From: Chloroflexota bacterium
Lineage (GTDB): Bacteria; Chloroflexota; Dehalococcoidia; Lucifugimonadales; UBA3495
Reading direction: 5' to 3'
NCBI GenBank assembly: GCA_009837355.1
Contig: VXTR01000088.1
Coordinates: 1 to 45,379, forward strand
DNA: 45,379 nt
Positions within the stretch are counted from its first letter, which is position 1. Every line of letters starts with the position of its first letter. The notes beneath the pieces are model-generated. The model saw nothing but the letters and a program-made list of their open reading frames with translations, ran no database searches and was not told the origin of the DNA. Below, one piece after another: positions 4,847 to 12,176 of the stretch. The position numbers and the translations under genes were made by a program.

Positions 4847-4876
4847 TTGACGAATGGCGAACCTCGGTTCTATAAT
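4847..4876 (+). promoter_or_regulatory. Promoter for the HTH gene
   Basis: TTGACG (4847-4852), an 18-nt spacer and a consensus TATAAT (4871-4876) form a sigma70-type promoter. It would start transcription near 4883, about 30 nt before the HTH gene. Together with the leftward promoter it makes a divergent, phage-style control region. The ~270 nt between 4647 and 4914 hold no gene that I can support. Confidence 0.75.
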
Positions 4877-6848: not shown

Positions 6849-6878
6849 ATTCTACGGCGGCGGCGGCAAAAGTGTCAA
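6849..6878 (-). promoter_or_regulatory. Promoter of the RAM-domain gene
   Basis: TTGACA (6878-6873), an 18-nt spacer and TAGAAT (6854-6849) on the minus strand lie about 90 nt upstream of the start at 6762. Confidence 0.65.
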
Positions 6879-8072: not shown

Positions 8073-8111
8073 AAAAAAAATATCGGGGCGACTCCCAGGG
8101 TCGCCCCGATA
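8073..8111 (-). terminator. Intrinsic terminator of the tubulin-like gene A
   Basis: A 12-bp perfect stem, TATCGGGGCGAC (8081-8092) with GTCGCCCCGATA (8100-8111), has a 7-nt loop. On the minus strand it is followed by eight T residues (8080-8073), so it terminates the leftward tubulin-like gene. On the plus strand it could weakly stop the converging monooxygenase transcript. Confidence 0.88.
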
Positions 8112-8134: not shown

Positions 8135-9631
8135 CTACGGGCGGAAACCGCCGGCGCCATTCTCGTGGCCGTTGCCGTACTGCGTCGTCTGGGTCTGCGT
8201 CTCTACGGCGCGCTCCTGCTGCTTCCGCTCGTTGCGGATTTGAGCGCCGCGGGAGACGTACCCGTACTGGGAACCCGCGTCGGGGCGGCCGGGCGACATG
8301 AAGTGGCCAGTGCCGAAGCCGGTTTGCTGCAGCCCGTCCGCCATGTGCGCCGGAGTGTAGGTGTCGTGCATGATGTCCGTGATGCTGTAGATGTTCTCGG
8401 TCTGCAGCGGGTAGAACAGCGATATGTGCATGTGCCGGTCGTCGGCGTTTTCCTGGAAGTTGGCCGAGGCGAAAGACCAGGTAAGGTTGGGGTAGGCCAG
8501 ATCAAACTCTTCCCGGTCCAGCTGGTCCCGAACGTCGGATTCGATGTCGGTAAGGCCGGCGGTTTCGATGGGCAGCGTGATGACCATGCGCATCACCGAT
8601 TCGCCGTGAACGAAGTCGTGATTGGCCAGGTTCATGTCCCGGCGGGCGGGATCAAGGATGTCCCACATGGCCTTCTTGGTGGCCCAGGTGAGCTGCTTGG
8701 CGTCGTCGTTGACCACCACCAGTTCACGGCCACGCAGCGGGCCGAACCAACGGCTGCGCTGGGGCACGTCCACGACGTCCAGGCGCCGGTTCATCACCCG
8801 CATCCCGAACCAGCCGTTGGAGTAGCCGCCGAAGCTGGCCACGGTCTCGGCCAGGGAACCGCTGTCAATGCGATCCCGCATCCCTGCTTCCATCGAAGCC
8901 AGGCCGACGGCAAGCTTGCTGTCCAGGCGTTGATAATCCCGGGACAGGCGGTTGTCGGTAACCAGGGCCGGGAACCCGCTGCCGCTTCCGTTGGCGCTGG
9001 GGCGGGCCAGGCCCATGGTCTCCTCGTAGGCGCCCCACGTCTCCCGGCGCATATTCTCTTCGAGTACGTGCTCTCGAGGCATCAGCATGATGGGCAGGAA
9101 CAGCGCGTCCGGGAACCTGTCCTGCAGCAGTTGGTGCAGGACGCCGCCCAGCTTGGCGTGGCCGCCGAAGCCGAGCCATTCCAGGATAATCTGCGGCGGG
9201 GAGCCAACCTCCTCGGCGCGACGGACCACCGTATCCACCATGCGTTCCATGTCCCGGTGAATCAGCCCGTAGTAGTCCTTGTAGGCGTTGGGGTCGCGCA
9301 GGAAGCCGTCCACCTTGGGGAGGTATCCCGGCACTATCACCGGCAGGTTCGCGTTGCGGCCGCTGCGGCGCATGGCCTGGGTTTCCGCGTCAATGGCATC
9401 GATGCTGCCCTGGTTGCAGTCATACATCAGCAGGCTTTGCACCCGGTCAAGCACTCCGGCCTCGCCCATGCGCATCGCCCACTTCCAGCTGCGCTTGTAG
9501 CCGGCGGTTCCTACGGCCACCGACACAATCGGGGGCGGTACGCCGTCGCGAATCTGGTCCTGCTGACTCCCAATTCGGTGAGGATTATTGCGACGAATGT
9601 GGAAGGTTCGGTTTTGCAATTTAGGCGGCAT
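8135..9631 (-). CDS. Divergent tubulin/FtsZ-like protein A
   Basis: The 498 residues have the order of elements of a tubulin/FtsZ-type GTPase fold. A basic N-terminal tail is followed by a strand-loop-helix SVAVGTAGYKRSWKW (37-51, T1-like), then LLMYDCN (67-73, T2-like strand). IILEWLGFGGHAKLGG (148-163) then leads into HQLLQDRFPDALFLPIMLMP (T4-like loop plus helix). LVTDNRLSRDYQRLDSKLA (223-241) resembles the T6/H7 nucleotide-contact helix. The canonical GGGTG(S/T)G loop is altered to GFGGHAKLGG, so GTP binding is unproven. The tail from ~470 is Gln/Asn/Gly-rich and disordered, as in FtsZ tails. The start follows AAAGGGGG by 9 nt and a consensus promoter ~145 nt upstream. It is a paralogue of the next upstream gene. 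Confidence 0.6.
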   Translation of the reverse strand: MPPKLQNRTFHIRRNNPHRIGSQQDQIRDGVPPPIVSVAVGTAGYKRSWKWAMRMGEAGVLDRVQSLLMYDCNQGSIDAIDAETQAMRRSGRNANLPVIVPGYLPKVDGFLRDPNAYKDYYGLIHRDMERMVDTVVRRAEEVGSPPQIILEWLGFGGHAKLGGVLHQLLQDRFPDALFLPIMLMPREHVLEENMRRETWGAYEETMGLARPSANGSGSGFPALVTDNRLSRDYQRLDSKLAVGLASMEAGMRDRIDSGSLAETVASFGGYSNGWFGMRVMNRRLDVVDVPQRSRWFGPLRGRELVVVNDDAKQLTWATKKAMWDILDPARRDMNLANHDFVHGESVMRMVITLPIETAGLTDIESDVRDQLDREEFDLAYPNLTWSFASANFQENADDRHMHISLFYPLQTENIYSITDIMHDTYTPAHMADGLQQTGFGTGHFMSPGRPDAGSQYGYVSRGAQIRNERKQQERAVETQTQTTQYGNGHENGAGGFRP

Positions 9632-9776
9632 AGTACTGTACCCCCTTTCAGGTTAGACAATCCCGGTTATGACGCAGTAGTTCGTTTGGTCAGTTGGACT
9701 ACATCAAGTCAAACAGGGCCAGGTTTCAATCTAAGTAAAAGGCGACGGACCGGAGGCCCCGCCGTGACACGCGGCC

Positions 9777-9806
9777 ATTATAGTGGATGGCGTAAGAACA
9801 CGTCAA
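9777..9806 (-). promoter_or_regulatory. Strong promoter with long leader for tubulin-like A
   Basis: TTGACG (9806-9801), an 18-nt spacer and consensus TATAAT (9782-9777) lie on the minus strand. The predicted leader to the ATG at 9631 is about 140 nt, unusually long for this window. I found no known riboswitch in it. It makes gene A separately transcribed from gene B. Confidence 0.75.
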
Positions 9807-9824
9807 ATTGGTTACGAGTACAAT

Positions 9825-9856
9825 TATTTAGTAAAATTTCCATTTTTTGCTAAATA
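9825..9856 (-). terminator. AT-rich hairpin at the end of tubulin-like B
   Basis: TATTTAG (9825-9831) and CTAAATA (9850-9856) are exact inverted repeats, with A-runs facing T-runs inside. It includes the stop codon of gene B. It could act as a weak terminator or boundary, but there is no GC-rich stem. The surroundings are much more AT-rich than the rest of the window. Confidence 0.35.
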
Positions 9857-11217
9857 TAACGCACATTTTGTTCCCAGTCGTCATCCGGAGGTTCTACAGA
9901 AGCAGCCGATGCAAGTGGCCGCATGGAGGTAAAGGCGTCCATATGGTAATAAGAGCCGAAGCCCGTTTCATGCGGAAGCGCCTGCGTATGTTGCTCGGCA
10001 TCACGATCGGGATGCAGAATATCCATCACCGGCGCCAATTCCCCCAGGATGGGATACAGACGCGATACGTGCATATAGGGGTCTTTGGTTAAACCTTCAC
10101 TGAACCGCGCAGTGTTGAAGGCAATGTCTGTGTTGGGAAGCTGTCCGAAGAAGTTGCTGCGTTCCAGCGCTTCCGCAGTCTCCGCGGCCATGGGTTCCAG
10201 CGCGTCCGGATGCACCGGCAGCGACACCACCACTTCCTGGGGCGCATTGTAGGGTTCCTTCAAACCCGGCGTCATCTGCGATGACGGCTCCAGCGTGGAC
10301 CAGATGGCGTCGGCGATGGAACTCGACGTTTCTTCTTCCGAGCTCACGGTGGCGTATTCCTGCCACCACGGTGGAAAGCGCATCCACTCAAACTTCCGCG
10401 TTATCGGCATCTTCCGCCGCACCGTGGCCATGCCCAGCCACCCGCCGGAGGATGGCACGAGACGCCCGTAAGCGGCCGCCAGCTGGCTGCTGGCCGCCCC
10501 CTCCTCCTCAATCTCCGCAGCTTCAAATCCCGCCAGGGCCGTGCTCAGCCTGATGTCGTCGTCGCCGGAAGAACCCAGCGACAGCCCCGTTACCAGGCAG
10601 TTGGAGCCTTCCAGCAGGCTTTCATACTGTTCCCAGATATAGCGCCTGGTCCATTCCCTGGACGCGTGGTCTTCGGGCAGCGTCAGCACCGGCAGCAGCA
10701 CGCTGGCGGGAAAGGCCACGCGCAGCTTGCGGTGCAGCCGCCCGCTGGGCACCGAGTGCCCGGAGAATCCCAGGAACTCGATGATTACGTCGGGCGAGCG
10801 GCCGGAACTCTCGGACTGCGCGCCGACCTGCCCCACGATGTTGTCCATGTCCCGCTCCAGCGGGCCTTCGTATTCCTCAAACCGCCTGGGGTTGCGCATA
10901 AATCCGTTGGGCATCGGCACGTAGCTGGGAAATAGTACCTGCATACCATGGCCATGCCTGGACCTCCCCAGGAACCTGCGCAGGAACTTCTGCACGTAGG
11001 AAACGGTGAGCTCGTTGCAGTCGTAGAAAACTACGCTTTGAACCTTCCCCAGCTGGGAAAGTTCCGCCATGCGCTGCAGAAACCACAATGCCCTCCGCGC
11101 GCCGGCCGTGCCGGTGCCCAATACCACCAGCGATGCCGCCGCTCCATTCGTCTTGCGCTTGGTGGTGCGGAGCAGTCGGTTGCTTCGGCTGCGCGCCTTT
11201 ACGAATGTGTTCGGCAT
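9850..11217 (-). CDS. Divergent tubulin/FtsZ-like protein B
   Basis: This 455-residue paralogue of the 8.1-9.6 kb product is collinear with it over most of its length. Shared blocks are the glycine loop VVLGTGTAGARRALWFL (31-47), VVFYDCNEL (62-70), SYVPMPNGFMRNPRRFEEYE (98-117), VIIEFLGFSGHSVPSG (144-159) followed by LHRKLRVAFPASVLLPVLTL, and a helix with STALAGFEAAE (225-235). Gene B keeps a GTGTAG glycine loop, closer to the tubulin GGxG pattern than A. Its T6-like segment reads CLVTGLSLG instead of ALVTDNRLS, so the Asn thought to contact the nucleotide base in tubulins is lost. The N-terminal 25 residues are strongly basic. No good ribosome site precedes 11217; the gene follows the hydrolase by 55 nt and may share its transcript. 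Confidence 0.6.
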   Translation of the reverse strand: MPNTFVKARSRSNRLLRTTKRKTNGAAASLVVLGTGTAGARRALWFLQRMAELSQLGKVQSVVFYDCNELTVSYVQKFLRRFLGRSRHGHGMQVLFPSYVPMPNGFMRNPRRFEEYEGPLERDMDNIVGQVGAQSESSGRSPDVIIEFLGFSGHSVPSGRLHRKLRVAFPASVLLPVLTLPEDHASREWTRRYIWEQYESLLEGSNCLVTGLSLGSSGDDDIRLSTALAGFEAAEIEEEGAASSQLAAAYGRLVPSSGGWLGMATVRRKMPITRKFEWMRFPPWWQEYATVSSEEETSSSIADAIWSTLEPSSQMTPGLKEPYNAPQEVVVSLPVHPDALEPMAAETAEALERSNFFGQLPNTDIAFNTARFSEGLTKDPYMHVSRLYPILGELAPVMDILHPDRDAEQHTQALPHETGFGSYYHMDAFTSMRPLASAASVEPPDDDWEQNVRYI

Positions 11218-11272: not shown

Positions 11273-12073
11273 TCAGGAACCGGGTTTCAGGAAGGCCAGC
11301 ACCGCATCGACGAAGCCCTCCGGGTCTTCAATCTGCGGGATGTGCCCAACGCCCGGCATGATGTGCTTGCGAGCCCGCACAATGTTGTTGTGCAGCAGCT
11401 CTTCGCCGTCCCGCAGCCGGTCAACCTCGCCGTACAGCACCAGCGTCTCCCGGGCCTGCACCATCGGCAGCCGGGCCATGATGTCGTACCAGGCCAGCGA
11501 TTCGTGCAGCTTCTTCACCCAGGTGCCGGCCTGGGCCCGCGTGTCATTCTGGGCGTCCACCCACTCTTGCCTGGGTTCCGCAAAGGTGGTTGACTCTTTC
11601 GCCTGTTCCATGGTTCGGGGAACCGGCAGGCCGTCGGCGTCGTAGCCGGCGGCGGTCTCGGCAATACGCTCCGGCGCCGTGCGGGCGTCCCACACCGGCG
11701 AGCCCACCAGCACCAGCTTGTCCAGCCGGTCCGGGAACGAGGCGGCCATCTCCGTGGCCAGGACGGCCCCCACCGAATTGCCCACGTAATGGCCCCGGTG
11801 TATGTTCAGAATCTGGCAGGCGTCGTCCAGGGCCTGCGCGTAGTCCGGGATGTTGAAGTGGCGCGTCGGCTTGTCGGACTTGCCGTGGCCGAGCATATCG
11901 AAAGCGTAACAGGTATAGTGCTGGCTGAAAGCGTCGATGACGCTGCTCCACGCCCAGGTGGAAGTGCCCAGCGGGTGCAGCATCACCAGCGGATAGCCGG
12001 CGCCCTGCTTCACAAAGTGCATGTTGCCTTCGCGGGTGGTAACGGTGTCGGTAAGGTCGCGCCGCACGAACAT
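11273..12073 (-). CDS. Alpha/beta-fold hydrolase
   Basis: This 266-residue hydrolase has the oxyanion-hole block LVMLHPLGTSTWAW near residue 27, FDMLGHGKSDKP, and the nucleophile elbow HYVGNSVGAVLATEMA with Ser in GNSVG at ~100. The C-terminal acid (LVLYGEVDRL) and histidine (GVGHIPQIEDPE) are also present, so the catalytic triad looks complete. The substrate is unknown; relatives include meta-cleavage-product hydrolases, esterases and haloalkane dehalogenases. I chose the ATG at 12073 because AGGAGGC precedes it by 7 nt; a longer frame to 12139 lacks a ribosome site. It is the first gene after a TTGACA promoter and lies upstream of tubulin-like B. Confidence 0.88.
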   Translation of the reverse strand: MFVRRDLTDTVTTREGNMHFVKQGAGYPLVMLHPLGTSTWAWSSVIDAFSQHYTCYAFDMLGHGKSDKPTRHFNIPDYAQALDDACQILNIHRGHYVGNSVGAVLATEMAASFPDRLDKLVLVGSPVWDARTAPERIAETAAGYDADGLPVPRTMEQAKESTTFAEPRQEWVDAQNDTRAQAGTWVKKLHESLAWYDIMARLPMVQARETLVLYGEVDRLRDGEELLHNNIVRARKHIMPGVGHIPQIEDPEGFVDAVLAFLKPGS

Positions 12074-12146
12074 AACGGTGGCCTCCTGTTGGTAGCGAAA
12101 CAAGGGACGCTGGACGAACCCCCGTAGGGGTTGCCCCATTGCTGTA

Positions 12147-12176
12147 ATGCTAACGATTTGGCAGGTACAATGTCAA
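12147..12176 (-). promoter_or_regulatory. Promoter of the hydrolase / tubulin-like B transcript
   Basis: TTGACA (12176-12171), an 18-nt spacer and TAGCAT (12152-12147) on the minus strand lie about 75 nt upstream of the hydrolase ATG. Confidence 0.6.

Follow-up and report, generated by a model that had tools for sequence, protein, structure and literature searches.

Genes A and B are neighbouring paralogues of a Chloroflexota bacterium (assembly GCA_009837355.1, contig VXTR01000088.1; the whole stretch of 45,379 nt that was analysed is referred to as the window), both encoded on the minus strand and separated by a 218-nt spacer that runs exactly from the B stop codon to the A start codon (9632-9849). 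An original prediction, made from the letters of the window, described both genes as tubulin-like and proposed that the spacer holds a strong promoter for gene A only, followed by a long leader, and that this separate control points to a regulated stoichiometry of the two proteins, as a two-component filament might require. The question raised by this locus is whether the spacer carries a regulatory leader or the promoter region of a separately expressed gene. Its base composition is as originally described, with a GC content of 0.459 vs 0.645 for the whole window; only 0.2% of 218-nt windows are equally AT-rich, and the lowest of all starts at 9652 (features are listed in Table 1).

Table 1. 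Coordinates of the features discussed (positions in the window).
Feature	Position	Strand	Description
Intrinsic terminator of A	8081..8111	-	12-bp hairpin, then eight T; z -4.87
Gene A	8135..9631	-	498 aa, predicted tubulin/CetZ-like fold
Predicted untranslated leader of gene A	9632..9770	-	139 nt, without conserved structure
Shine-Dalgarno of A	9640..9648	-	AAAGGGGGT, 8 nt before start codon; -13.8 kcal/mol
Terminator-like hairpin early in leader	9743..9764	-	in the window; not at the same place in most relatives
Gene A promoter	9777..9806	-	-35 TTGACG (9806-9801), 18-nt spacer, -10 TATAAT (9782-9777)
AT-rich inverted repeat	9825..9856	-	overlaps B stop; not terminator-like
Gene B	9850..11217	-	455 aa, A paralogue, predicted tubulin-like fold in N-terminal two thirds
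Alpha/beta-hydrolase gene	11273..12139	-	upstream of B, same strand; PF00561
Promoter of hydrolase(-B) unit	12147..12176	-	TTGACA-18-TAGCAT

A gene pair with a predicted tubulin-like fold, found in one genus

The genome of the window comprises 3.25 Mb in 89 contigs, and the named relatives of gene A (12 loci) come from Dehalococcoidia/Chloroflexota metagenome assemblies, one of which is titled SAR202 cluster bacterium. All 13 other genomes of the genus contain gene A, and 46 genomes from other genera gave no match (0/46). A profile search with A and B through 393 genomes sampled from the class matched only the window's own genome. The A/B pair was found in all 14 genomes of the genus that were examined, and nowhere else among the genomes searched. 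The spacers upstream of A were compared in these 14 genomes (SAR202/Dehalococcoidia), i.e., the window and 13 relatives, which fall by eye, without a tree, into about four related groups and hence represent fewer than 14 independent cases. B lies on another contig in one of them (L050), and in another (L047) the contig breaks off within B and leaves its start unreadable.

A and B share 29% identity. Neither matches a Pfam family, and even with a cutoff of E <= 1, scanning 26 A and B sequences retrieved no tubulin family, neither PF00091 nor PF13809; a PDB sequence search with A and B gave no match either. The only PF00091 match in the window's genome is an FtsZ encoded elsewhere, which looks canonical and adjoins an FtsA-like gene (named FtsA from reading its sequence), hence A and B are additional to the FtsZ of this genome. 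The relationship becomes visible in predicted structures: the model of A (pLDDT 68, pTM 0.71) matches tubulins in Foldseek with an E-value of about 4e-11 and reaches Z 21-23 when superposed on tubulins and CetZ. The B model is poorer (pLDDT 56, pTM 0.50), but its N-terminal part still aligns with CetZ and tubulins over about 200-225 residues (Z 16-18). The description of both genes as tubulin-like is consequently borne out for the predicted fold, but not by Pfam or PDB sequence matches, and the models support placing A and B by overall fold in the tubulin/FtsZ/CetZ superfamily. Bacterial FtsZ is absent among the best 50 VIA-align matches for A and B, which excludes nothing.

The T4 loop of tubulins is glycine-rich, with the motif GGGTGSG. 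After the strand at residues 148-153, A carries GFGGHAKLGG, and B has G-F-[SAG]-G-H-[AS] at the matching place, a glycine-rich segment that is related to the T4 motif but does not have its classical form. A third, more diverged paralogue with 30% identity to A was observed away from the pair in one relative (L059, G004:C33:143778-145013).

Promoter, ribosome-binding site and 3' end of gene A

Sigma-70 (RpoD/SigA)-type promoters have near-consensus -35 and -10 hexamers 16-18 nt apart, may carry an optional extended -10 element and start transcription 6-8 nt past the -10 box. The TTGACG and TATAAT boxes with an 18-nt distance that had been noticed in the spacer match this consensus at 11 of 12 positions. 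As a pattern scan alone, this is weak, with two matches of 9 or more in 4 kb vs 1.0 expected from shuffles, and the score of the window's spacer is reached in 0.4% of its own dinucleotide shuffles. The strong evidence for a promoter at this site is rather its conservation in 14 of 14 genomes against a diverged background: all 14 spacers have a best score of 11-12 (positions matched out of 12, with one more point for TGn), which 1000 dinucleotide shuffles per spacer equal in 0-0.9% of cases, although outside the promoter the spacers align poorly between clades. Invariant columns make up 28/30 of the promoter vs 28/79 of the mid-leader in a clade of five genomes, and 16/32 vs 16/145 in the six-genome clade to which the window belongs. 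In six genomes (the window and L046-L050) the -10 box is TATAAT without TG; the other eight have one -10 mismatch, namely TATATT or TATAGT in seven and TATGAT in L058, and all eight have an extended -10 element, with TG separated from the -10 box by a single base. This compensating pattern points to selection on promoter strength and makes the gene A promoter a clean case, seen across relatives, of TGn compensating a -10 mismatch. With TTGACR, 17-18 nt, a TATAAT-like box and TGn where the box is one off, the predicted site shows no difference in kind from the sigma-70 type, and it appears to be an ordinary, strong-looking and private promoter.

Such near-consensus sites are rare, since TTGACR-N16-18-TATAAT occurs just 12 times in the 3.25-Mb genome, the gene A promoter included, and the reversed control has no match. 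Six of the 12 (L062, L064, L065, L068, L069, and L070; 1501-1530 in each) carry a GAAC-N4-GTTC-like palindrome touching TATAAT, which we take to be LexA/SOS-box-like. Each of these six stands at the head of a dispersed non-coding element, which is about 450 nt long, contains internal repeats, has a conserved 3' block that ends in AGGAGG and is covered by no Rfam family. With L070:1495-1945 as query, the window's genome yields 39 matches, of which about 13 are near full length; seven other genomes of the genus also have matches, vs 0/8 from other genera. A seventh palindrome-type promoter (TTGACG-18-TATAAT with GAACCTCGGTTC) lies in the window at 4847-4876 on the plus strand, 31 nt before a Cys-containing, HTH-like ORF of 115 aa, which possibly encodes a DNA-damage-induced regulator. 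Furthermore, an 11/12 promoter match (TTGACA-18-TAGAAT) is found at 6878 on the minus strand, in the region of a luciferase-like gene and on the strand opposite to it.

The ribosome-binding sites of the two paralogues differ markedly when pairing is computed against the 3' end of the genome's own 16S rRNA. A AAGGGGGT-like site (GGAGGAGGT in L058) lies 8-12 nt 5' of the A start in 14/14 genomes, with pairing energies of -10.3 to -16.1 kcal/mol, vs -1.0 to -6.3 kcal/mol for the 12 of 12 readable B starts (-4.4 in the window). The pairing of A in the window exceeds that of all 21 ribosomal-protein/EF-G genes compared (-3.2 to -13.3 kcal/mol; 21 of 25 operon genes, four with uncertain starts being left out). 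Codon adaptation (0.707 for A, 0.560 for B) was dropped as a measure of expression, as the ribosomal genes, at 0.55-0.76, are not separated from others.

Past the A stop codon, a G+C-rich hairpin is seen by eye within at most about 45 nt in all 14 genomes, and a script requiring a T-rich tail finds a match in 11/14, that of L052 at a different place. In the window, this hairpin possibly also terminates the facing luciferase-like gene.

The claim that the promoter serves gene A only holds for the spacer, but B would also be served by a promoter, a conserved one located before the upstream hydrolase gene: TTGAC[AT]-17/18-TAGCAT is present in 11/11 genomes with readable sequence, a count that leaves out L046 (ends too early) as well as L047 and L050 (part missing). 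Its weaker -10 box suggests a weaker promoter than that of A. Directly before B, the best promoter scores are 6-10 (12 genomes), and only the one in L052 is reached in fewer than 1% of shuffles. In the five-genome clade, a weak promoter-like site is present there in every member (best score 8-10), for which a script returns TTGG..-18-TA[AG]AAT in four of the five. In the window, B is thus probably expressed with the hydrolase gene; one clade perhaps adds a weak promoter specific to B.

The leader and alternative readings of the spacer

The leader is predicted to begin at 9770, and its 139 nt (9770-9632) agree with the roughly 140 nt first proposed. Its length is similar throughout, 139-181 nt over 14 genomes, which speaks for a cis-acting element controlling how much A is made (a riboswitch, an attenuator or a site to which A binds); a long leader kept in this way could hide a function that averages of sequence and fold overlook. 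We nevertheless consider a regulated leader unlikely. The window, leader included, has no Rfam match at gathering score, in line with the earlier remark that no known riboswitch was recognised, and the 14 predicted leaders are on average no more stable than shuffled sequence, with folding z-scores of -1.38 to 1.68, a mean of -0.09, and 0.27 in the window. For the six-genome clade, RNAalifold gives a consensus of just -1.09 kcal/mol, i.e., the fold is not conserved, and in the clade of five genomes covariation counts against the fold (+2), 4 of 64 pairs showing compensatory changes; the consensus of -38.7 kcal/mol in the latter also takes in the promoter and the non-transcribed part. These fold tests are limited by the sequence alignment of diverged leaders on which they were made. 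An alignment of nine leaders inspected by eye likewise lends no support to a structured leader, and 8-93% of shuffles do as well as the hairpins found in the final 100 nt.

Other points would favour regulation through the leader. In the five-genome clade, its first 50 columns are better kept than its middle (32/50 vs 28/79 invariant), and a six-codon ORF at about +24 (a start, M/V-P-x-x-L-V/M and a stop) is shared by all five members (L054, L051, L056, L052, and L055). It is preceded by AAGG in four of the five genomes and opens with ATG/GTG-CCG, as does gene A. This ORF, which may possibly encode a leader peptide, is however confined to one clade and was not seen in the others. A stem, GTAGTTC/GAACTAC, recurs in the window, L049, and L050, and by eye as GTGGTT/AACCAC in L058; it was set aside because it is missing in several genomes and, where it is the best hairpin, 8-27% of shuffles match it. 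An attenuator at 9764-9743 was also rejected: for this terminator-like hairpin of the window a script found no equivalent past the promoter in 12/13 relatives (a different one in L057), so that this hairpin probably arose by chance. The original prediction had named a lack of leader conservation in relatives as evidence against itself; the leader does show such a lack, whereas the promoter is kept in 14/14 genomes. There is thus no evidence for regulation via the gene A leader, which looks ordinary.

Alternatively, the hydrolase gene, B and A could be co-transcribed as one operon, in which case the promoter match in the spacer would be incidental. The order hydrolase-B-A on one strand is kept in every genome with readable sequence, and a terminator between B and A is missing in most genomes, the window being among those in which none was found, so that read-through from B into A is possible. 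However, the promoter persists in 14/14 genomes with compensating changes although the remaining spacer has diverged, and the spacer itself measures 218-382 nt across the genomes, which makes a single operon very unlikely.

The inverted repeat noted at the end of B was found as well, with 12-nt arms (9825-9836 and 9845-9856) that are 92% complementary. As RNA it reaches only -4.6 kcal/mol (z -0.56), and this AT-rich hairpin was rejected as an intrinsic terminator of B, which would be expected to have a G+C-rich hairpin and a T run. The promoter-proximal arm (about -55 to -66) lies within an AT-rich stretch common to the six-genome clade, which is UP-element-like by position. The centre of the repeat lies about 70 nt 5' of the predicted start, and its right arm is kept in that clade. 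Least probable of all, however, is that it serves as an operator at which a regulator controls the A promoter, as its left arm covers the region of the B stop codon, the palindrome is missing from other clades and no regulator gene has been identified.

Expression model and comparison with known tubulin systems

We consider it likely that the spacer holds the promoter of a transcription unit consisting of gene A alone, which would lead to a constitutive excess of A over B without a leader-borne switch. The conserved promoter, the contrast between the ribosome-binding sites, the hairpin and the lack of a conserved leader structure are established by sequence comparison, while we infer the start site, the promoter strength, the protein ratio and the co-transcription of B with the hydrolase gene. 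Housekeeping (sigma-70/SigA-type) RNA polymerase would start about 139 nt before A at the near-consensus promoter, and the transcript would run through a leader without conserved fold, the strong ribosome-binding site and gene A, ending at the hairpin just past it. B, which lacks a good ribosome-binding site, would be part of the adjacent hydrolase-B unit with its separate promoter and weaker -10 box, hence the constitutive excess of A. The promoter, Shine-Dalgarno and hairpin data thus portray A as a separate, strongly expressed unit and B as a weakly translated operon gene, and A is probably made in excess of B.

The separate control of A that was originally proposed is therefore upheld by the promoter (14/14), the hairpin after A (14/14 by eye) and the separate hydrolase-B promoter (11/11). 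The proposal of a regulated stoichiometry survives in part: a difference in the amounts of A and B is likely, given their Shine-Dalgarno pairing, whereas its being regulated finds no backing in the Rfam search, the mean folding z-score or the six-genome fold. The promoter provides a first handle on a divergent pair of tubulin-fold genes, and points to A as the protein of the two that is likely to be abundant.

The promoter data of A also argue against a simple 1:1 heterodimer. A speculative reading, which we regard as doubtful, is that A and B form a genus-specific tubulin-like cytoskeleton with unequal subunits, A being the bulk of the filament and B a scarce cap, nucleator or length regulator. 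In such a filament, A would be supplied by the strong promoter and ribosome-binding site that it has to itself, and B by the hydrolase operon; unlike in alpha/beta-tubulin or BtubA/B, the two subunits would not be made 1:1.

In the literature on bacterial tubulins, the Btub operon and SAR202/sponge symbionts, with subscription journals poorly covered, no description of the A/B pair was found. CetZ-like sequences have been reported from Halobacterota, Altiarchaeota, and a few Chloroflexota-Dehalococcoidia, in a set gathered via Pfam PF00091 (PMC9871819). A and B belong to the same bacterial class, Dehalococcoidia, but have no PF00091 match and differ in this from that set. The model of A superposes on CetZ (3zid_A) with Z 23.1 and rmsd 4.0 over 301 residues, and that of B on CetZ2 (4b45_A) with Z 18.4 and rmsd 3.4 over 204 residues; as eukaryotic and gamma tubulins equal CetZ within 1 Z unit, a closer placement of A and B is not possible. 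In Prosthecobacter, the btub genes of btubA-btubB-bklc are described as forming one operon (PMC3232192; PMC5372463). The locus studied here resembles it in that two neighbouring paralogous tubulin-fold genes occur in a bacterium, where FtsZ has to be considered for comparison as well. In contrast to the Prosthecobacter system, A has its own promoter and a terminator-like hairpin, its ribosome-binding site is far stronger than that of B, and both proteins fall outside the Pfam Tubulin family.
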